A DNA stretch of 64,000 nt from Anaerolineae bacterium (GTDB taxonomy: Bacteria; Chloroflexota; Anaerolineae; Anaerolineales; Anaerolineaceae): contig JABLWW010000001.1 in assembly GCA_013178295.1 (NCBI GenBank), positions 1 through 64,000 on the forward strand. The letters are read 5' to 3'. The position numbers and the translations under genes are program-made. Shown here piece after piece: positions 28,457-38,712 of the stretch (position 1 is its first letter; every line of letters begins with the position of its first letter). Under the pieces are notes generated by a model, which worked only from the letters and a program-made list of their open reading frames with translations, did not search any database and was not told the origin of the DNA.

Positions 28457-29080
28457 ATGCCAAGAAGAAAGCAACCGATTGTGATTGGGATTGCAGGCGG
28501 GTCGGGTTCAGGAAAGACGACTGTGGCAAATGCAGTGCTCAAGCGCGTGGGGGCGCAGCGCATAGCATTTCTTCAGCATGATGCATATTATCGTGATCTA
28601 AGTGATTTGCCACCAGCTCAGCGGGCGCAGGTTAACTTTGATCACCCGGATTCTCTCGAAACAGAGTTGCTCATAGAGCATATTCATAAACTTAAATCTT
28701 GGCAAGCAGTCAATCTGCCAGTGTATGATTTTACGACGCACAGTCGCACGCAACGCATGATTCACATTGAGCCACAAAGGGTGATTTTGGTAGAGGGCAT
28801 CCTGATCTTTGCCGAAAGGGCTTTGCGTGAGTTGTTCAATGTCAAGATTTTTGTGGACACTGACTCTGACTTGCGTTTTATTCGCCGTTTGCAAAGAGAT
28901 CTTGCCGAGCGGGGACGTACCACCGAGACGGTGATCCATCAGTATTTGAGTACAGTACGTCCAATGCACCTTGAGTTTGTAGAGCCCTCCAAGCGTTATG
29001 CCGATGTGATCATTCCCGAGGGGGGGATGAATGAAGTGGCATTGGACATGGTTATTGCACGAATCGAGGCGTTATTGTAG
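28457..29080 (+). CDS. udk: Uridine kinase
   Basis: Phosphorylates uridine and cytidine in pyrimidine salvage; cytoplasmic. The 207-residue protein has a perfect P-loop (IAGGSGSGKTTVA, about 11-23), the QHDAYYRDLSDLP acceptor-binding motif, NFDHPDSLETELL, PVYDFTTHSR, and VILVEGILIF. Length is typical. GAGGAA lies before the ATG. It follows the 172-residue hypothetical gene by 13 nt. Confidence 0.96.
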   Translation: MPRRKQPIVIGIAGGSGSGKTTVANAVLKRVGAQRIAFLQHDAYYRDLSDLPPAQRAQVNFDHPDSLETELLIEHIHKLKSWQAVNLPVYDFTTHSRTQRMIHIEPQRVILVEGILIFAERALRELFNVKIFVDTDSDLRFIRRLQRDLAERGRTTETVIHQYLSTVRPMHLEFVEPSKRYADVIIPEGGMNEVALDMVIARIEALL

Positions 29081-29082
29081 TT

Positions 29083-29109
29083 CACCATAAGAAGCCCCCG
29101 CCTATGGTG
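29083..29109 (+). repeat. Intercistronic hairpin between udk and the M20 peptidase
   Basis: CACCATA and TATGGTG form a 7-bp stem with a 13-base loop rich in C. It begins three bases after the udk stop. There is no T-run, so read-through into the peptidase gene is likely. Confidence 0.4.
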
Positions 29110-29132
29110 GGGTGAGATGAGAGGAGAGAAAT

Positions 29133-30491
29133 ATGCTGCCGATCGATGCATTCGATCAATATTTTGTTTCGCGCCTGTCTGAAAATATTGCCGAGTTGAT
29201 TGATTTGGTAAAACAGCCCAGCGTGTCTGCCCAAAATTTTGGTTTAGAAGCGTGTGCCATGCTTGTTTATCAGATGTTTGTGCGGCGCGGTTTTACGGTG
29301 GAGCTGATCAAAACACCTGGCGCGCCGGTGGTGATTGCGGAGAAAAAGGGGCGCAGCGATAAAACGCTGCTTTTCTATAATCACTATGATGTGCAACCGG
29401 CTGAACCGCTGGAATTGTGGCAGACGCCGCCGTTTGATCCAGTATTACGCGATGATGTGCTTTATGGGCGTGGAGTTTCGGACGATAAAGGACATTTTGT
29501 CAATCGTCTTTTTGCTTTGGATGCTTTTATGGATTTGGAGGGGGAGCTTCCCTGCAATGTGAAATTTGTCCTGGAGGGTGAGGAAGAGGTGGGAAGCCCC
29601 AATCTGCCCGCCTTCATGGAGAAATATCACCACAGAATTAAAGCAGATGCCTGTATCTGGGAGTTCGGAGATGTGGATCATCGCGGGGCGCCGCTTCAGG
29701 AACTGGGTGTGCGCGGATTGCTGTATGTTGAACTGGCAGTAACCACTGCCAATCAGGATGTTCATTCTGGGATGGGCGGCTCAATTTTCCCCAACGCAGC
29801 CTGGCGGCTGGTTTGGGCATTAAATAGTCTAAAGACTCCAGATGAACGCGTGCGTATCCCCGGCTTTTATGACGCAGTACGCTCGCCAAGTCAGAAGGAT
29901 GCGGCTTTGATGGAGACTTTGCCCGACATCGCTGATGAATACCAGACACGTTATGGCATCAAGGGTTTTATCAAGGGGTTGCGCGGCGGGAAGGAACTGA
30001 GGATCGCTGAGGTACTTGAGCCAAGCGCTACAATTTGCGGTTTGACAGCTGGCTATCAGGGACCTGGTTCCAAGACAATCGTACCAGCCAGGGCGTGCGC
30101 CAAGATGGATTTTCGCCTGGTTCCTGACCAGAACCCGCAAGAGATATTGCTGAAGCTGCGCAAACACCTGGATGCCGAGGGTTTTGATGATGTCGAGATC
30201 GTTTCGCATGGCATGATCCCCCCTGCGCGCACAGACTCTGACCATCCGTTTGTGCGTATGGTAGTTGATGCTGCCAGGGATGTGTATCCCTTGCCAATGG
30301 TTATCACCCCCAGCACGGGTGGCTCAGGGCCCAATTATCTATTTGTCCGCTATCTTGACCTTCCCATTGTTTGCATGGGATTTGGTCATCCTGGGGCGCA
30401 GATTCACTCCCCGAATGAGAACCTGCGGTTGGATTTGTATCGCAAAAGTGCTATGCATCTTGTGCGGCTGATGAAGATTTTTGCGGGTTAG
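29133..30491 (+). CDS. M20 family metallopeptidase (dipeptidase-like)
   Basis: Dizinc exopeptidase of 452 residues. Metal and catalytic motifs are intact: YNHYDVQPAEP (His ligand and Asp), GRGVSDDKGHF (bridging Asp), EGEEEVGSP (catalytic Glu pair), and a late His in GFGHPGAQIHSPNE. The dimerisation domain lies between (about 190-320). The pattern matches the PepV/CNDP dipeptidase group that uses M20/M25/M40 numbering. AGGAG lies before the ATG. Its stop overlaps the convergent stop of the HD gene by 4 nt. Confidence 0.93.
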   Translation: MLPIDAFDQYFVSRLSENIAELIDLVKQPSVSAQNFGLEACAMLVYQMFVRRGFTVELIKTPGAPVVIAEKKGRSDKTLLFYNHYDVQPAEPLELWQTPPFDPVLRDDVLYGRGVSDDKGHFVNRLFALDAFMDLEGELPCNVKFVLEGEEEVGSPNLPAFMEKYHHRIKADACIWEFGDVDHRGAPLQELGVRGLLYVELAVTTANQDVHSGMGGSIFPNAAWRLVWALNSLKTPDERVRIPGFYDAVRSPSQKDAALMETLPDIADEYQTRYGIKGFIKGLRGGKELRIAEVLEPSATICGLTAGYQGPGSKTIVPARACAKMDFRLVPDQNPQEILLKLRKHLDAEGFDDVEIVSHGMIPPARTDSDHPFVRMVVDAARDVYPLPMVITPSTGGSGPNYLFVRYLDLPIVCMGFGHPGAQIHSPNENLRLDLYRKSAMHLVRLMKIFAG

Positions 30492-31102
30492 TTTGCTTTT
30501 TCCCAGTGGAGGATAATTTTGCGGTTGAACACCACCTGCATCAGATCTGACTTCTCGACCGCGATGTGGTCATCGCGCGGGATTGTTTTGACGGTTAAGA
30601 CGATTGTGATTTTCTTCAGCTTTGGCTTGCAACTCAAATCCACAATTTGCCCCTGAGAAGACTGGTCAAGACCATCTGCCAGACGCAGACAGGCTGCCAG
30701 CACACAGACCTTTTCGCGGTCTTGCGGGTCAAGGGCAGCATAGTGGTCGTGGCTTTCGCTTGGCAATGCCTTGCGATGATAGCGGGCTATTGAGGCAATG
30801 ATCAGGCGTTCTTTGTTATCGAATGGCAATAGGCTGTTAGTGATGATAATCTTGAGAGACGCTTTGTGATGTTGTTTGTGCCCCTCAATTTGCCCAATAT
30901 CGTGTAGCGTTGCAGCGCATTGAAGCCAGAATCTTTCATCTTCGCCAAGGCGATGAAGGATTTTTAACTCATCAAATAGTTTGAGTGAGAATTTGACCAC
31001 CCGCTGGATGTGTTCAGGGTTGTAATTGCAGGTAGTAGCCAGCTCAAGAACTGCCTGGTAGGCGCTCTCCTGTTTTTGGCTCAAAGCAGGATTTTGTTCC
31101 AT
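30488..31102 (-). CDS. Stand-alone HD domain like domain III of Ppx/GppA exopolyphosphatase
   Basis: The 204-residue protein matches the C-terminal HD-like domain of Ppx/GppA from end to end: H31 in NPEHIQRVVKFSLKLFDELK, AATLHDIG with H67-D68, HHKAS, the IASIARYHRKALP motif near 101-113, and ACLRLADGLDQSS near 137-149. The ASKHA phosphatase half is absent. In Ppx this domain helps hold the polyphosphate chain and in relatives may be catalytic. Start 31102 (MEQNPAL) is chosen because the frame upstream runs into the CHAD gene. It ends the long pst operon, directly after the polyphosphate-linked CHAD gene, pointing to polyphosphate or (p)ppGpp metabolism (inference). Confidence 0.85.
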   Translation of the reverse strand: MEQNPALSQKQESAYQAVLELATTCNYNPEHIQRVVKFSLKLFDELKILHRLGEDERFWLQCAATLHDIGQIEGHKQHHKASLKIIITNSLLPFDNKERLIIASIARYHRKALPSESHDHYAALDPQDREKVCVLAACLRLADGLDQSSQGQIVDLSCKPKLKKITIVLTVKTIPRDDHIAVEKSDLMQVVFNRKIILHWEKAN

Positions 31103-31124: not shown

Positions 31125-32114
31125 TTATGGCGAGTGGCTAATGGAAGGGTAGATGGGCTGCCCGAGGAAGGAAACCGGTTTCTGTACTGTAAAGAGCAGA
31201 TTTTCCCATACGTTCTGCTTTTTCCAGCTCTTCCAATCCTGGAGAAAACTTTCATAGGCCAGCTTGCGTTCTTCGAGGCGCGCGGTGCGGAAATATTCAA
31301 GCCCCGGCAAGAGCAGATTGAACGGCGCGCTTTTGCCATAGAAAGCAATCACGCGTTTGCGCTCATCTTCAATGAATTCCGTTAAGAACATCTCCCAGAC
31401 ATCACAATCATGGATAAGACCTAGTGCCTCTTGCGTCTTGCGGATGATCTGGAGAGGGATTTTCAATTCGTCGGGATAAGATGGAGCGAAAATTTCCATG
31501 GTGTAGCGCAAGTGTTTTGCGGCAATGCGCATGGCGTGCAGTTCTTCTACGCGCAGAGGATCGAGGAGATGGGTTTCATAACTGAGAAACGCATTCAGAC
31601 AACGCGAAACCGCTTCGTAGGAGCGGCGGTAAAACAGAGCGCTGATGGGGGGTTCTTCAGTAGCTGAGGATAAGATGGTCTCGAAAGCCGAGAGCATTTC
31701 ATCTACAGTGCCACTCTCAGTGAGACGTTCCAGCGCGCGGTTGACCTTTGTTTGTAATTTGGCTCTTCTTTGGCTAAGCCGTAGAATGAGGCGGCGGATA
31801 CCCGGTGCATATCGCTTTTCGGGAAGACTGGAAAGCGTCTGTTTTAGTTTGTCAATTTGCACATCTGTATCACGGGCTGCACCCAGCGAGCGGGTGATCT
31901 GTCGGATTTGTGCGCTGAATGCTGACCATTTCTTTTCAGGGAAGCAATCTCTAAATAGGGGGAGGGCTGCGCGCAAACGCCGTGAAGCAACGCGCATGCG
32001 GTGGATGCATTCGATATCTTCTGCCAGACGGACGCCTTCAACCTCCTGGAGTAGCGCCAGGGTATGTTTTCTTAGTAACTTGCTTCCATAGCTACATGTG
32101 TACTCGTCTGACAT
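31125..32114 (-). CDS. CHAD domain protein (polyphosphate-binding)
   Basis: The 329-residue protein is mostly one CHAD domain, a helical bundle with basic surface known to bind inorganic polyphosphate. Both internal repeats show the conserved His/Arg signature: IHRMRVASRRLRAALPLFRD (about 37-56) and ELHAMRIAAKHLRYTMEIF (about 195-213). Further landmarks are SLGAARDTDV and LGLIHDCDVWEMFL. No CYTH triphosphatase domain is fused. It sits between the thymidylate-kinase-like pair and the Ppx-type HD gene in the pst operon, so phosphate-responsive expression is likely. Confidence 0.92.
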   Translation of the reverse strand: MSDEYTCSYGSKLLRKHTLALLQEVEGVRLAEDIECIHRMRVASRRLRAALPLFRDCFPEKKWSAFSAQIRQITRSLGAARDTDVQIDKLKQTLSSLPEKRYAPGIRRLILRLSQRRAKLQTKVNRALERLTESGTVDEMLSAFETILSSATEEPPISALFYRRSYEAVSRCLNAFLSYETHLLDPLRVEELHAMRIAAKHLRYTMEIFAPSYPDELKIPLQIIRKTQEALGLIHDCDVWEMFLTEFIEDERKRVIAFYGKSAPFNLLLPGLEYFRTARLEERKLAYESFLQDWKSWKKQNVWENLLFTVQKPVSFLGQPIYPSISHSP

Positions 32115-32182: not shown

Positions 32183-32881
32183 TCAGCTGGATGATTTTGG
32201 CACAAACAGGTTCTTTATGTGTGTGCGCAAATCTGCGAAGACGCTTTGAACATTTTGGTTGGCGTCAATGGTGATAAAGCCGAATTCTTTTACCATTCGG
32301 TCAAACTCCTGGATGAGGAGCGTTTGATAAGCGCAGAAACTGTCGTATAAATTGTCCGCACAGCGTATATCCATCCCGGCTTCCCAGAAGTCAAAACCGC
32401 GCCCGTGCACAATACGCGAGACAAGGGTGGTGATATCTGCTTTGAGATATAGGATGATATCGGGTTTAAGCGCAAAACCGTACACTTTGCGCAAACGGTG
32501 AGGGTTCAAGCCGCGTATGCTGTCGCGGGCGATGATGGAGTAAAAATATCGGTCAGAAAGAACGATGAAACCGGCTTTGAGCGCAGGGATGATTTGGCGT
32601 TCCAAACGGTCGGCGAAGTCGGTGGCGTAAAAGAGGCTCATGGTGAGTGGGCTGAGCGTATGCCCCAGTTTTGCTGCGTCCAACCCAGGCTGTGTGAGGG
32701 GAGAACGTCTCAAGCCGGTGTTAGAGACGGCAAAACCCTCAGCCTCAAGCCACTGGCGTAGAAGTTGTATCTGGGTCGAGCGTCCAACACCATCTGTCCC
32801 TTCCAGAACGATCAACTTTCCGGGTAGGTCTTTGAACTGAAGATAAGGAAAACCAGCGCCGTAAAAGTCAAGTTTCGTCAT
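32183..32881 (-). CDS. Thymidylate-kinase-like protein with Arg in place of the Walker A Lys
   Basis: Second of two tandem TMPK-fold proteins, 232 residues. The P-loop reads LEGTDGVGRSTQ: the invariant Lys is Arg34, encoded CGC (32782-32780), which needs at least two base changes from a Lys codon, so one sequencing error does not explain it. The DRY motif (IVLSDRYFYSIIARD, D110-Y112) is kept. It has about 20 extra N-terminal residues before the first strand. Loss of the Lys usually impairs ATP use, so this may be a regulatory or structural partner of the upstream paralogue. Its start overlaps that gene in ATGA. True substrate unknown. Confidence 0.85.
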   Translation of the reverse strand: MTKLDFYGAGFPYLQFKDLPGKLIVLEGTDGVGRSTQIQLLRQWLEAEGFAVSNTGLRRSPLTQPGLDAAKLGHTLSPLTMSLFYATDFADRLERQIIPALKAGFIVLSDRYFYSIIARDSIRGLNPHRLRKVYGFALKPDIILYLKADITTLVSRIVHGRGFDFWEAGMDIRCADNLYDSFCAYQTLLIQEFDRMVKEFGFITIDANQNVQSVFADLRTHIKNLFVPKSSS

Positions 32882-33627
32882 GGCTCGCCCTTGTTAATGG
32901 TGGGTGTTGTCAGCGACCAGACAGCGCGCCTGCGGCGGGGTGGACGGATAGGGCTGGGCAACCCTTTCCAGCGATACAAAATTTTTCTGACAATCTGGCG
33001 CATCTGCTGTTGCTGCGCTTCGACTGGCAGTGTGCCGTCAATGACCGTGAAGCCGAATTCGTCAATCATTTTTTCGTATTCGGCGATGATGCGCTGCTGA
33101 AACAGACGGAAGCTGGTAATTTTGTTGTCCGAAAGCCCAAGGTCCATTCCGGCTTCGTAGTATTTTAGATTGGCGCGTGCGCCAGTGATACGCTCGATCG
33201 CCACGTCCAGTGGCACACGGAAGTAAAATGCCAGATCAGGTTGAATGGCAAAGGAGTAAAGATATCGCACCCATTCGCGGTCAACGCCGCGAGCAACGTC
33301 GCGGGCAAAAGCGGTAAAGGCATACCGATCAGCAAGCACAATGGTGCCAGCTTTTAAGAGGGGGCGTATGTAATTTTCCCATCGGTCGGCAAAATCGGTA
33401 GCCTGTAAGAGGCTAAACGTCGTGGGGGTGAACATTTTTTGTTTTTTCCCCAGCCGGGTTGTGCTTTTTACCAGCGAGGAGGAGTTCCATTCGGTGAAGT
33501 AAACAGATTTGCCGGTTGTTTGCAGCCATTTATACAACAGGTCAATTTGGGTGGACTTGCCGCTGCCGTCAATTCCCTCAACAATAATTAATTTGCCGGG
33601 ATATTTTTCTTTGGCTAACACAACCAC
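32878..33627 (-). CDS. Thymidylate kinase-like protein with intact P-loop
   Basis: First of the tandem pair, 249 residues. The Walker A motif EGIDGSGKST is complete (K24) and the DRY motif is at 100-102 (IVLADRYAFTAFARD). The NMP-binding region TPTTFSLLQATDFADRW differs from the FAADR pattern of housekeeping Tmk, but the same ATDFADR is shared by the second paralogue, so the two form their own subgroup. A basic C-terminal tail (PSPIRPPRRRRAVW) is extra. It starts 14 bases after phoU. Housekeeping dTMP kinase is possible, but the operon context suggests a phosphate-related nucleotide kinase. Confidence 0.87.
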   Translation of the reverse strand: MVVLAKEKYPGKLIIVEGIDGSGKSTQIDLLYKWLQTTGKSVYFTEWNSSSLVKSTTRLGKKQKMFTPTTFSLLQATDFADRWENYIRPLLKAGTIVLADRYAFTAFARDVARGVDREWVRYLYSFAIQPDLAFYFRVPLDVAIERITGARANLKYYEAGMDLGLSDNKITSFRLFQQRIIAEYEKMIDEFGFTVIDGTLPVEAQQQQMRQIVRKILYRWKGLPSPIRPPRRRRAVWSLTTPTINKGEP

Positions 33628-33641
33628 TGCCTTTCAAGGGT

Positions 33642-34325
33642 TCATGAACTTACTTCTTCTTCATCATCAGAAGGCTCGATTTCAAGTAATTCCCCGGTGG
33701 CGATAAACACGGTGCGTTCACAAATGTTGGTAACCCGATCAGCCGCCCGTTCGAGATTGTGTGCTACCCACATGACCTGGTTGGCATGGTCAATGATCTC
33801 CGGGTTGGCGATCATTTCTTTGACCATCATGTGGTGAACAGTGTTATAGAGCGTATCTACTTCGTCATCTTCTGTAGGGATGGTACTTGCCTGGTTAACA
33901 TCTTCGGCGATGAAGGCGCTGAGGGCGCGGTGTAACATGCTAACTGCCTTTTCACCCATACGTCCAAGCTCGTTATATGGGATGGGGATGGGCTGGTCGC
34001 CTAACTTAATAATCACTTTGGCAATGCCTTTAGCGTAGTCTCCCATGCGTTCAAGTTCGGTGATGATTTCAAGGTTGGCAGTCAGTTTGCGAAGGTCATG
34101 GGCGATGGGTTGCTGTGTGGCAATGGTGATGAGGATGGCATTTTCGATTGCAAAACGTTTTTCGTTGATCTCGGTATCATGCTGATAAATTTGCCGTGCG
34201 CGGACGACATCGCGCCGCTTGAGGGCATCCACCGCGCTTAAGATTGACTGCTCAACCATGCTGCCGAGTAGCAAAATTTCATCGTTTATCTGGACAAGTT
34301 GACGCTCAAAGGCTATTCGTAGCAT
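33642..34325 (-). CDS. phoU: Phosphate signalling protein PhoU
   Basis: Cytoplasmic negative regulator linking the Pst transporter to the sensor kinase; 227 residues. Two PhoU helical repeats are visible, each with an E/DxxxD metal-type motif: LERMGDYAKGIAKVIIKLG in the first and LERAADRVTNICERTVFIAT in the second. GAGG lies before the ATG. It follows pstB by 42 bases and precedes the thymidylate-kinase-like gene by 14. In other bacteria loss of PhoU causes polyphosphate accumulation, which fits the downstream CHAD and HD genes. Confidence 0.96.
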   Translation of the reverse strand: MLRIAFERQLVQINDEILLLGSMVEQSILSAVDALKRRDVVRARQIYQHDTEINEKRFAIENAILITIATQQPIAHDLRKLTANLEIITELERMGDYAKGIAKVIIKLGDQPIPIPYNELGRMGEKAVSMLHRALSAFIAEDVNQASTIPTEDDEVDTLYNTVHHMMVKEMIANPEIIDHANQVMWVAHNLERAADRVTNICERTVFIATGELLEIEPSDDEEEVSS

Positions 34326-34346: not shown

Positions 34347-34375
34347 ATTATACAACATAATCCAATATTACCCAA
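34347..34375 (-). promoter_or_regulatory. Possible internal promoter before phoU
   Basis: The very AT-rich 42-base spacer between pstB and phoU has a perfect TATAAT on the minus strand (34352-34347), but the -35 position (TTTGGG) is weak. It could give basal phoU transcription. Confidence 0.3.
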
Positions 34376-35174
34376 ACCGCCCTGAAATGTAATCTTCTGT
34401 ACGCTTATCATGCGGATTGGTGAAGATATTGGTGGTTGTGTCAAACTCCACCATGACACCGGCGCGGTCTGGGTCCATGGTGAAGAAAGCGGTGTAATCT
34501 GAAGCGCGTGCGGCTTGCTGCATATTGTGGGTTACGATAATGATGGTGTAGTTAACAGAAAGCTCGCGCATCAGATCTTCAATTTTGAGCGTTGCAATGG
34601 GATCGAGCGCAGAACAAGGTTCATCCATGAGAATAATTTCTGGTTTGACAGCCAGAGCGCGGGCAATACATAAACGTTGCTGTTGCCCGCCTGAAAGCGC
34701 CAGGGCGCTTTTACGCAGATCATCTTTTACCTCGTCCCACAATGCTGCCTGGCGCAATGTTTGTTCGACAATGTCATCCATATTTCCTGGAATACCATTG
34801 ATGCGCGCTCCCCAGGCAACATTTTCGTAGATGCTTTTTGGGAAAGGGTTTGGCTTCTGGAAGACCATCCCAATCATTTTACGTACCTGTACGGGATCCA
34901 CTTCAGGGGCATAAAGGTTTTGATTGTGAAAACAGATTTCTCCCTCCAGGTGGTAACCGCGCACAAAATCGTTCATGCGGTTAAAAGCGCGCAGAACGGT
35001 ACTTTTGCCGCAACCCGATGGACCGATGATGGCAGTGATTTTATTGGGTTGGATTTTTAGATTCAGATCCTTAACGGCGCGAAAGCTGCCATAATACATG
35101 GAAACGTTTTTCACTTCCAGGATGTTGTGGTTGGCATCTGAAAGATTGGGGGTGTTCGGTTCGTAGTTGATCAT
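34368..35174 (-). CDS. pstB: Phosphate ABC transporter ATP-binding protein PstB
   Basis: ATPase of the high-affinity phosphate importer, 268 residues. Walker [21 protein letters not shown]-loop [20 protein letters not shown], signature [17 protein letters not shown], Walker [15 protein letters not shown] and the H-loop ITHNMQQA-type [20 protein letters not shown] are all present. NRMND and KPNPFP are PstB-specific. It overlaps pstA by 4 nt (ATGA). Confidence 0.98.
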
Positions 35175-36409
35175 AATCTCTGCCTGCTAAAGCGGTTTCT
35201 CATAAGGATAGCCACTGCGTTTAATGACAGCAAGGATATTAGAAGAACAATGATGGCGGCAGCGGCGATGTTTCGGAATGTGTCTTGTGGGCGTGTTGTC
35301 CAGTTGTAAATTTGGATGGGCAAAGCGGTAAATTTGGAAAAAGGACTGGATGGATTTGTCGTTATATAGGTCGAGGCGCCCACCAGAATAAGCGGAGCAG
35401 TTTCGCCAATGGCTCGGGAGATAGCCAGGATGGTACCGGTTAGTATTCCTGGCAGAGCGTTGGGCAGTACATGATACCAGACGGTTTGCCACTTGGTGGC
35501 GCCTAGTCCGAAGGCAGCCTGGCGCAGTGAATCCGGCACCGCTCGTATGGCTTCCTGAGCATTGATAATGAGGATAGGGAGGATGAGCAATGCCATAGTA
35601 AGCCCGGCGGATAGAATGGAGCGCCCATTATTGCCTTCAATGCCAAAAGCGGCGCCGCTGGTGATTGTCTCGAGTGTGCGCACGAAAATTGCCAGTCCCA
35701 GTATACCATAGACAATAGAGGGCACACCGGCAAGGTTGTCAATGTTCGTCTGGATGATTTTGTTAATGCGGTTATCTTTGTTAGCGTATTCTTCAAGATA
35801 GATTGCCGCACCAACCCCGATGGGGAAAGCCACCGCGATGGTAATTGCTATCAGGTATAGTGACCCCATCAGCGCTGTGGATACCCCGGCGAGTTCGGGT
35901 TTGCTGGACATGGTCTTTTTTAGAAAAGTGAAGTTAATCCACGAACGAAACTCAATTTTCGCATTGGGATATTTCTCTACCGCTTCACGCTCGATTTGGC
36001 TGCGGCTTAACAGCGATTGCGTTAATGTGTAGCTTTTGACAACGGTGGGTTGCACCACGCGTTCCATCACCAGGCCGTAGATGTCAATCTGGCTTCTTGC
36101 ATCAAGGGGTTTTTCTTTTTCAATGGTCTTGATGCGGTTTTTGGAGAGGTTTGCCTGCAAGATTGAAATGAGTTCCTCTTTGGGTAACTCTTCCAGTGGC
36201 CGCTCGGCGAGGGTCATGGGGTCTATTTTGTTTTCTATAATGACCAGCCCCATTGCCTGGTTAATGATGCTGAGTAGCAATACCGTCAACGCAACGATAC
36301 CGATGGTGGTGGAGGCGAAGAAAATCGTGCTCCATATTTTCCCAATCTGATGTCTTTTGGGGAGATTGCCGGGATTGGCAAAGATGTTGTTGTCAATAGC
36401 ATTGTTCAT
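35171..36409 (-). CDS. pstA: Phosphate ABC transporter permease PstA, with large insert
   Basis: Membrane subunit of the phosphate importer. At 412 residues it is about 120 longer than typical PstA. The extra length is a mostly polar stretch (about 58-170) between membrane helix 1 (about 30-55) and helix 2 (about 180), presumably outside the cell. The permease core is normal, with [20 protein letters not shown] and [12 protein letters not shown], and the EAA-type loop [20 protein letters not shown]. It overlaps both pstC and pstB by 4 nt. Confidence 0.95.
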
Positions 36410-37380
36410 TCATACACCTCCCGGAAGCGGCTAACCAGGCGGCGGCTGAGGATGTTGAGTGAAAGGGTGATAACAAACAGCATTAAGCCGATGGCAAAAA
36501 TACTGTTGTAGTCTGGCGTATCATAAGCCAGGTCGCCGCCACTGATGCGGGCAATATATCCTGTCATTGTTTCGGCAGCTTTGAGCGGGTTGAATGTGAA
36601 ATTTGGCCCTGATCCTGCGGCAACAGCGACGATCATGGTTTCGCCGACTGCGCGCGAGATGCCAATGATGAAAGCTGCAATGATGCCGGAAAAGGCAGCA
36701 GGCACAACGACACGCACGGCTGTCTCCAGACGGGTAGCGCCTAGCCCGTAGGCGGCTTCGCGCAGCGAGCGGGGTACTGCGCTGAGCGCATCTTCGCTCA
36801 TCGAACACACCAGGGGCAGTATCATGATGCCCATCACCAGTCCTGCGGAGAGTGTGTTGTAAATTTGTACGTTTTCCTTCCCCAATATCAGGCGCAGCAA
36901 GGGCGTCATAAAGGTCAACGCAAAGTATCCGTATACCACTGTGGGGATACCGGCGAGGATTTCTAGAACTGGCTTCAGGATACCGCGTGCCTTTTGGGAA
37001 GCGTACTCGCTGAGGTAGATCGCAGCGCTCAGCCCGAGAGGCAGTGAAATCAGCATGGCAAAGAAAGTTGTCATGGCTGTGGCGGTAACCAGCGGCAGGA
37101 CACCAAAATTACCGATGGATGGCTGCCAGGTGGTTTTGGTGAGGAAGTCAATTAATTTGACTTCGGGTTTTCCAAAAAACAAAAGCGATTCCTTGGTCAA
37201 TTCAAATACAATACCAAGAGTAGTCGCAATCGAAATAGCGCCGCACACAAACAGAAAACCCATAATCAAAGTTTCACCAGGTCGGAAGCGCATGCGCAAT
37301 TTGGAGGCAAGAGCTTCCTGGGAGCTGGTAACAACGGGTGCAGTTTGTCTGACAAGATGTTTGCTTATTTCATGTTCCAT
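36406..37380 (-). CDS. pstC: Phosphate ABC transporter permease PstC
   Basis: Membrane subunit of the phosphate importer, 324 residues with six helices. Typical segments: LSEYASQKARGILKPVLEIL, AGIPTVVYGYFALTFMTPLL, and the EAA loop LSAVPRSLREAAYGLGATRLE. The first extracytoplasmic loop contains FFGKPEVKLIDFLTKTTWQP. The start at 37380 (MEHEISKHL) is preferred; the frame extends 39 codons upstream into the spacer with pstS. AAGGGG lies about ten bases upstream. Confidence 0.96.
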   Translation of the reverse strand: MEHEISKHLVRQTAPVVTSSQEALASKLRMRFRPGETLIMGFLFVCGAISIATTLGIVFELTKESLLFFGKPEVKLIDFLTKTTWQPSIGNFGVLPLVTATAMTTFFAMLISLPLGLSAAIYLSEYASQKARGILKPVLEILAGIPTVVYGYFALTFMTPLLRLILGKENVQIYNTLSAGLVMGIMILPLVCSMSEDALSAVPRSLREAAYGLGATRLETAVRVVVPAAFSGIIAAFIIGISRAVGETMIVAVAAGSGPNFTFNPLKAAETMTGYIARISGGDLAYDTPDYNSIFAIGLMLFVITLSLNILSRRLVSRFREVYE

Positions 37381-37517
37381 TACAGATACCCCTTTTAAAA
37401 ACAGTAAAAACTGTGCAGGTGCACAGACAAACGCAGATAACAACGCCGGAAAATTTGGGTAATCTGAATTTGTCTGTGTATGTTTTTCTCTCTTCACATT
37501 TTGATTATTCTTCTTGG

Positions 37518-37553
37518 TTTTTGGGAGGCCGATCGTTCCCGGCCTCCCAAAAA
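37518..37553 (-). other. Strong intercistronic stem-loop between pstS and pstC
   Basis: A perfect 13-bp stem (TTTTTGGGAGGCC with GGCCTCCCAAAAA) and 10-base loop begins 19 bases after the pstS stop. On the minus strand the 3' side is followed by A and C, not T, so it is not a classical intrinsic terminator. It may protect the pstS message from 3' decay and raise PstS over PstCAB. Another inverted repeat, CTGTGC/GCACAG, lies at 37411-37426. Confidence 0.7.
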
Positions 37554-37572
37554 TATTCTGCTTATGACAGGG

Positions 37573-38712
37573 TTATTTCATTGCATCGAGCCACTTCTGC
37601 ATTGCTTCCTTGAGGGCTGCTTCGCTGGCGGGGAAGTAGCCGACGTCTTCGATGACGGTGTTGACGTTGGTGAGGAAGTAGCTGATGAAACCAGCCACCT
37701 GGGGTTTAGCTTTCATGATGCCGGCGTCGGAGTAGATGAACAACGGGCGGGAGAGTTTGTACTCACCGGATTCAGCGCTCTCGAAGGTGGGGGCGATGCC
37801 ATTGATGGAGAGGGCTTTGAGATTGGCTTCCTCGTTCTTGTAGTAAGCAAAACCGAAGTAACCGACGGCGTAGGGGCTGCCGAGGACACCCTGAACGAGG
37901 ACGTTATCATCTTCGGAAGCCTGCTGGTTTTTGGCAGCCAGGACGATTTCCTTGGCAGCATCCAGTTTTTCGATTTTCTGGGGTTTCTGGATGACCTCTT
38001 CGACGAAGAAGTCGAAGGTGCCGCTATCGGTGCCGGGGACGAAGCGCTGGATAGGTTCGGCGGGCCATTCAGGACGGACATCGGACCACTTTTCGGCGGT
38101 AGAGAAGATGGCAGCCAGTTCTTCGAGGGTGACATCAGTTACGAAGTCGTTGTCCTTGCTGACGACAACAGCGATGGCATCGGTGCCGACGCGGAACTCA
38201 ATAGGGGTGCGAGCGGGGGAGAGCTTGCCACAGTTTTCGACTTCGCTGTCCTTGATCTTGCGGGAAGCGTTGGAGATGTCGGACTCGCCGGTCTTGCAGA
38301 AGCGTTCGAAGCCGCCGCCGGAGCCGATGGAGTCGATTTTGATCTCGCCGGTGAAGCCGTCGGCTTTGAACTCTTCGGCGATGGCTTCAGCCAGAGGATA
38401 GACGGTGGAGGAACCCGCAGCGTAGATGCTTCCGCTCAGGCTGGCGGGGTCAACTTCGGGCAGCATTCCCTGCTGAGCAGGTTCAGCAGGTGCCTCTGTC
38501 GGTGAGGCAGGCTGTTCTGCTGCTTTAGTTGGTTCAGCGGGCTGTTCTGCTGCTTTGGTTGGTTCAGCGGGCTGTTCCGCTGCTTTGGTTGGTTCGGCGG
38601 GCTGTTCAGCCTTTGTGGGTTCTGCCATCGGCGTGGCTTGGGGAGCGCAAGCTGCAAGCGCCATGCTCACTACCATTAAGACGGCAAGAAGGGAAAAGAT
38701 AGTACGTTTCAT
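37573..38712 (-). CDS. pstS: Phosphate-binding lipoprotein PstS
   Basis: Extracytoplasmic phosphate receptor, 379 residues. A lipoprotein signal ends in MALAACAPQ (Cys about 22). Next comes a repetitive linker of AEQPAEPTKA-type units (about 32-75), encoded by 30-bp DNA repeats, then the binding domain (about 85-379): AAGSSTVYPLAEAIAEEF, DSIGSGGGFERFC, SDISNASRKIKDSE and FVPGTDSGTFDFFVEE contact phosphate in the family. GGAG lies upstream of the ATG. Its promoter carries the Pho box at 38776-38825. Confidence 0.97.
   Translation of the reverse strand: MKRTIFSLLAVLMVVSMALAACAPQATPMAEPTKAEQPAEPTKAAEQPAEPTKAAEQPAEPTKAAEQPASPTEAPAEPAQQGMLPEVDPASLSGSIYAAGSSTVYPLAEAIAEEFKADGFTGEIKIDSIGSGGGFERFCKTGESDISNASRKIKDSEVENCGKLSPARTPIEFRVGTDAIAVVVSKDNDFVTDVTLEELAAIFSTAEKWSDVRPEWPAEPIQRFVPGTDSGTFDFFVEEVIQKPQKIEKLDAAKEIVLAAKNQQASEDDNVLVQGVLGSPYAVGYFGFAYYKNEEANLKALSINGIAPTFESAESGEYKLSRPLFIYSDAGIMKAKPQVAGFISYFLTNVNTVIEDVGYFPASEAALKEAMQKWLDAMK
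38518..38607. repeat. Three tandem 30-bp repeats inside pstS
   Basis: Three nearly identical 30-bp units (38518-38547, 38548-38577, 38578-38607) encode the AEQPAEPTKA linker of PstS; single-base differences separate them. Degenerate copies flank both ends. The repeat is in frame, so copy-number change would only alter linker length. Confidence 0.9.

Follow-up and report, generated by a model that had tools for sequence, protein, structure and literature searches.

A conserved pair of thymidylate kinase-fold proteins in a bacterial phosphate operon, most probably the two subunits of a polyphosphate-metabolism kinase

The stretch of Anaerolineae DNA analysed here (64,000 nucleotides, hereafter the window) carries on its minus strand an operon in the order pstS-pstC-pstA-pstB-phoU-A-B-CHAD-Ppx domain III/HD, in which A and B are neighbouring genes for proteins of the thymidylate kinase (TMPK) fold (Table 1). 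The last gene of the operon encodes a stand-alone Ppx/GppA domain III (HD) protein; we placed its start within the open frame 31348-30488, and a Pfam scan did not detect the Ppx-GppA catalytic domain in it. From phoU to this gene, a consensus scan of the operon strand gave one weak terminator-like site, located inside tmkB. Between pstS and pstC lies a 15-pair hairpin (37517-37554) that the scan scored as terminator-like on the plus strand only, and the pstS-like gene holds, in its N-terminal portion, a 30-bp tandem repeat of 3.3 copies (38510-38607), encoding AEPTKAAEQP-type repeats. Uridine-kinase-like and M20 peptidase-like genes, named from sequence, adjoin the operon (28457-30491) and also occur near the pair in two other loci (L005 and L021).

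Table 1. Features of the A-B pair and its operon in the window.
Feature	Position	Strand	Details
Ppx/GppA domain III (HD) protein, stand-alone	30488..31102	-	PF21447 E 1.7e-22, PF01966 E 2.8e-9
CHAD-domain protein (polyphosphate-binding domain family)	31125..32114	-	PF05235 E 8.9e-51
tmkB (B, putative subunit), TMPK-fold paralogue of A	32183..32881	-	232 aa, Walker A GTDGVGRST
Arg34 codon CGC at the Walker A Lys site of tmkB	32780..32782	-	
ATGA, tmkA stop/tmkB start overlap	32878..32881	-	4 nt
tmkA (A, putative subunit), TMPK-fold kinase	32878..33627	-	249 aa, GTG start, Walker A GIDGSGKST
phoU	33642..34325	-	directly upstream of tmkA; TIGR02135 192.5 bits, above cut-off
pstB	34368-35174	-	named from sequence and gene order
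pstA	35171-36409	-	named from sequence and gene order
pstC	36406-37497	-	named from sequence and gene order
pstS	37573-38712	-	named from sequence and gene order

A and B of the window are 40% identical over 208 columns. A has the Walker A sequence GIDGSGKSTQ (Lys24), an EWNSS acceptor loop, DRY and Arg109; B reads GTDGVGRSTQ (Arg34), with the EWNSS loop replaced and DRY and Arg119 kept. An earlier note on this DNA had described tandem TMPK-fold paralogues with DRY and ATDFADR in common and a 4-nt overlap of their genes, the second having Arg for the Walker A Lys, and all of this held. It had also set the Arg codon at least two base changes away from a Lys codon; several changes do separate them, but the exact number has to be corrected, as CGC has no base in common, position by position, with either AAA or AAG.

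The label of thymidylate kinase given in the earlier note is not supported. The same genome encodes a canonical Tmk elsewhere (G000 C16), with EPGGT and DRYADSTLAYQG, and we therefore rejected a duplicated housekeeping tmk as an explanation. In canonical Tmk, the EP and Tyr-Gln residues contact dTMP. We aligned 34 A, 33 B (the B of L276 left out) and 13 ordinary Tmk-type sequences from sampled genomes: EP and a Tyr-Gln after DR(Y) were present in 13/13 of the ordinary sequences and absent from A and B. At the acceptor sites A has Trp47-Asn48 and Arg109-Asp110, and B has Leu57 or another residue, a rebuilt loop with Arg59-Ser60, and Arg119-Ala/Asp120. The base-side Tyr site of Tmk (Tyr in 13/13) is occupied by Arg in 34/34 A and 33/33 B, a substitution that would fit a phosphate-rich acceptor. 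One LID Arg is kept in B; the second, Arg151 (34/34 A), is not. Bacterial Tmk is like A and B in its fold and Walker A/DRY framework and unlike them in its acceptor motifs.

PF02223 matched both proteins, and the dTMP kinase equivalog model TIGR00041 (cut-off 83.25 bits) accepted A (96.4 bits) and scored B below the cut-off (69.4 bits). A will therefore probably be named a second dTMP kinase in annotations. These matches, together with the dTMP kinase name of the nearest solved structure (ST1543, below), would suit a divergent NMP kinase acting on dTMP, UMP or another NMP, with B as an accessory and the place in a phosphate operon reflecting regulation only. We regard this as unlikely in view of the separate canonical tmk, the loss of EP and Tyr-Gln, the Arg in place of Tyr, the recurrent CHAD and Ppx neighbours of the pair, and the fusion of some partners to Ppx domain III.

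We scanned a genome collection with B and kept 80 loci of 519 relatives, plus the window. At the Walker A site, Arg was present in 81/81 B and Lys in 75/75 A, and for 75 of the 81 B the locus also contained an A. We divided a broader collection of 438 unique sequences, which included the structure 2plr, into classes by score. Arg occupied the site in all 175 sequences of the B class, in keeping with the earlier note's view that one sequencing error would not explain the Arg. The A class (n = 215) had Lys in 212, Arg in two and a gap in one; L277 and L279 contributed the two with Arg, each the second gene of its locus, and the gap came from a split match in L278. Sequences scoring within 20 bits of both classes (n = 39) had Lys in 35, Arg in two and Thr in two, and a low-scoring class (n = 8) had Lys in five, Val in one and Leu in two. 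B is under purifying selection: among the 25 closest pairs, finite dN/dS estimates were 0.011-0.221 for B v 0.021-0.263 for A. Sequencing error and local decay of B were both rejected on the strength of this low dN/dS and the uniform Arg of the B class. Conservation of B was a little below that of A (mean identity 0.50 v 0.56 over 164 pairs). Two Tmk-like sequences from Planctomycetota (L219:1486-2211 and L220:231-893) keep EP and AYQ, but their Walker A Lys is replaced by Thr (GAGTTTQ and GTGTTTQ).

Trees built with FastTree (432 sequences) and IQ-TREE (110 sequences) both separated an A clade from a B side. The check for a conserved Arg in orthologues, which the earlier note had called for, came out positive for the B class and negative for small-genome Melainabacteria, where the second gene has Lys in 27/27 sequences. 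These Lys-type sequences are sister to the Arg clade (support for the join 0.903 in FastTree, 90.9/97 in IQ-TREE). The Lys-type and Arg clades had FastTree supports of 0.998 and 1.0, and the main Arg clade 100/100 in IQ-TREE; the A clade as a whole was weakly supported (0.356; 84.6/67), and the Arg partners of L276, L277 and L279 fell outside the main Arg clade, with weak support. Second genes with Lys, which the earlier note had named as a refuting result, thus exist in the sister lineage, and we limit the claim about Arg to the Arg clade. An A-like EWKTS loop and the Arg-Asp motif are retained in the Lys-type partners, and in those pairs both subunits may therefore be active.

Other partners have gone further. 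In four acidobacterial loci (L281, L282, L283 and L285), the gene after A encodes a recognisable relative without a P-loop, and alignment of three of them (L281, L283 and L285) showed AP at the DR of DRY. In two loci of the window's own phylum (L274 and L275), the partner, whose P-loop is broken, forms a fusion protein with Ppx domain III/HD; in L275 its kinase portion lies just below the Pfam cut-off. A keeps its Lys beside all six of these degenerate partners. The partner states form a series from Lys, through Arg, to loss of both the P-loop and DR.

The earlier note had proposed a heteromer of an active and a degenerate subunit. That proposal gains from the conserved, ordered and close pairing, from the catalytic signatures of A and from a partner that is altered lineage by lineage, but second genes do not carry the Arg universally. 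In the window, as in the main clade, one member carries the catalytic signatures and the other lacks at least one of them (Lys24 v Arg34); exceptions to this pattern of enzyme and pseudo-enzyme are the 27 pairs of the Melainabacteria phylum and L218, with Lys in both genes. Where the Arg is present, A and B could still form such a heteromer. B might instead be active despite Arg34, with another substrate or direction than A and without an obligate heteromer. Strict retention of Arg34 and most of the P-loop, together with DRY, one LID Arg and the low dN/dS, fits that proposal, and B of the main clade is constrained rather than decaying; however, related partners have lost the P-loop and DR while the adjoining A keeps both, and A and B co-occur even when unlinked. 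We consider an independently active B rather improbable.

Both members were present in 185 of the 187 family-bearing genomes from six phylum-level searches. A genome was counted if it had one or more matches at E <= 1e-20, once weak single matches (75-91 bits) had been removed, and the six search-centre genomes were included as known pair carriers. The 187 comprised 71 genomes of the window's phylum, 33 Acidobacteria, 63 Melainabacteria, nine Planctomycetota, three Bacteroidetes and eight Deltaproteobacteria, with at least two matches in 69, 29, 63, 9, 3 and 8, respectively; the 185 also take in G147, added after inspection of L276, and G490, G535 and G595, which have degenerate partners. Some of the relatives' phylum labels look mis-binned (Armatimonadetes-labelled loci were at least 70% identical to the window). 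The removed genomes were G552 (canonical motifs on inspection), G845 and G860 (inspected), G647, G648 and G717 (uninspected) and, in Deltaproteobacteria, G1276, G1277, G1285, G1286, G1350, G1379 and G1380, with loci L240-L246 in the Tmk-like part of the trees. The two exceptions were G296, where A would fall past the contig end, and G550, with an A that has no partner beside it. A and B lay on different contigs in G021, G703, G722 and G732, and likewise in G031 and G032. Thus, linkage alone does not explain their co-occurrence. A plasmid search with B gave one weak Agrobacterium match, annotated tmk, at 32% identity.

Gene order was almost invariant. Among 199 unique adjacent pairs, 165 were A-B, 29 were A followed by a gene scoring alike to both classes (the 27 Lys-type genes, L274 and L275), four were A-A and one was B-A. 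The single B-A order (L169) was an artefact of a long open frame; the match coordinates in G537 put A before B. Measured to the start nearest to the A stop, a choice that biases towards small gaps, the second gene overlapped by 4 nt in 77/197 unique pairs and began within 30 nt in 175/197. A mean-field analysis of 190 pairs (effective number 86) brought out no A-B residue coupling beyond the chance level, with 99 of the top 200 couplings being inter-protein. TMPKs are usually homodimers, and this habit and the blank coupling result would both suit separate A and B homodimers in one pathway. Near-constant co-occurrence, fixed order and close spacing argue against that arrangement, which we hold to be very improbable.

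We counted neighbouring genes in pair loci of at least 8.5 kb, 48 of them near and 50 distant. CHAD was found in 44/48 near and 22/50 distant loci, Ppx or its HD domain in 27/48 and 26/50, and PhoU in 36/48 and 7/50; neither CHAD nor Ppx/HD was detected in 22/50 distant loci. The Ppx neighbour varies, being the stand-alone domain III/HD protein in the window and full-length Ppx in several other groups. A full-length Ppx near the pair was borne out by Pfam in 6/6 loci chosen from various groups (L312, L310, L073, L065, L072 and L269), as was a nearby CHAD in other groups. CHAD domains have been described as polyphosphate (polyP)-binding modules (PMC6537752), and archaeal CHAD-PPX clusters include a gene annotated as dTMP kinase, according to a figure legend (PMC10892726, Figure 2).

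In 46 hand-chosen genomes, PPK1 was found in six, PPK2 in 19 and neither in 27, a count that covers pair carriers only. All 15 of the two-Lys small genomes of Melainabacteria that were tested lacked both enzymes; the genome from which the window comes encodes PPK1 and two PPK2. Such absence is not rare in general, as PPK1 and PPK2 were both absent from 4/21 relatives chosen by kinship. Among ten loci of PPK-less genomes, CHAD and Ppx/HD were both near the pair in four and not both in six, one of which (L152) is short. CHAD, Ppx, A and B lie close together in two genomes without PPK1 or PPK2 (G189 and G149; L270 and L271), and in a row in L270.

PPK2 is, like A and B, a P-loop kinase with a thymidylate-kinase-like fold, and acts on polyP. 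Class II PPK2 is described as joining an inactive and an active domain (PMC8776046); there the two parts belong to one protein, whereas A and B are separate genes. PF03976 (PPK2) was not among the Pfam matches of A or B to E 0.1, and A scored 12.6 bits against TIGR03708, far below the cut-off of 547.65 and over the P-loop only.

Predicted single-chain models had mean pLDDT values of 86.9 (A) and 86.0 (B). The best solved match of both, by sequence and by fold, was Sulfolobus tokodaii ST1543 (PDB 2plr, 4nzy, 4rzx and 5h70), which shares with A the Lys P-loop, the EWNSS loop and the ARD motif. ST1543 was deposited and published as a dTMP kinase, and a PPK2 structure paper names it the nearest structure after the PPK2s (PMC4748334). 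PPK2 was absent among the 50 structural matches listed for A; that list is full of TMPKs, so the absence excludes nothing. On four viral contigs we found further A-type kinases. Three (L314:3920-5089, L316:3908-5122 and L319:3920-5110) have a Lys P-loop, a WNSS loop and a VR motif and continue at the C-terminus into an inorganic pyrophosphatase domain (PF18823), and the fourth has an N-terminal NUDIX domain (L320:3500-4666).

Work by Hofmann et al. is said to concern thymidylate-kinase-like proteins. The title of their 2024 preprint speaks of an 'archaeal family 3 polyphosphate kinase', and a paper followed in 2026 (JBC 302:111283). Citing papers describe the enzyme as one of polyP synthesis characterised in S. 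acidocaldarius (PMC11677633) and as a distinct PPK-type enzyme of Sulfolobus (PMC13318637). Identity of this crenarchaeal family with that of A is no more than a lead, and a bacterial pair whose second member has Arg may or may not fall within what that work describes. The titles and abstract openings of the literature matches listed did not mention the bacterial pair or its Arg subunit, and the 2026 paper may contain such a description.

On present evidence the pair is most likely a two-subunit kinase of polyP metabolism with a degenerate partner. Our explanation in full, to which we give about an even chance, is that A and B are the subunits of a TMPK-fold phosphotransferase in which A would be catalytic and B its degenerate partner. 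A would bind Mg-ATP through its P-loop (Asp20, Lys24 and Ser25) and DRY (Asp100-Arg101) and move phosphate between ATP/ADP and a polyP chain, which Arg109, Arg113 and the LID residues Arg146 and Arg151 would hold where Tmk would hold dTMP. With Arg for the P-loop Lys, a rebuilt acceptor loop and the second LID Arg lost, B would be non-catalytic or slow, and might serve in assembly, in holding the chain or in regulating A. Phosphate import and polyP storage would be linked to the pair through its operon neighbours PhoU/Pst, CHAD and a Ppx-type HD protein. This explanation draws on the co-occurrence and order of A and B, the CHAD/Ppx context, the Ppx-HD fusion, the PPK-less carriers, the Arg for Tyr, the match to ST1543, the low dN/dS of B and the precedent of class II PPK2; it is weakened by the PPKs of the window's genome, the absence of both PPKs from some relatives chosen by kinship, the loci free of such context, the TIGR00041 score of A, the dTMP kinase name of ST1543, the blank coupling analysis, the two-Lys pairs and G550.

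The pair is real, widely conserved and liable to be misnamed by automatic annotation. More tentatively, and at somewhat less than an even chance, it may be a PPK family outside PPK1 and PPK2 in several phyla, an obligate two-gene heteromer with intermediates still extant and the polyP synthase of carriers that lack both enzymes, such as small-genome Melainabacteria. If the polyP reading is right, genes that now pass automatically for dTMP kinase across many bacteria would move to polyP metabolism, and carriers without PPK1 and PPK2 would gain a candidate polyP kinase. The series of partners, with Lys, with Arg and with the P-loop lost, would then show a path from enzyme subunit to pseudo-enzyme, with the adjoining A as a built-in control.
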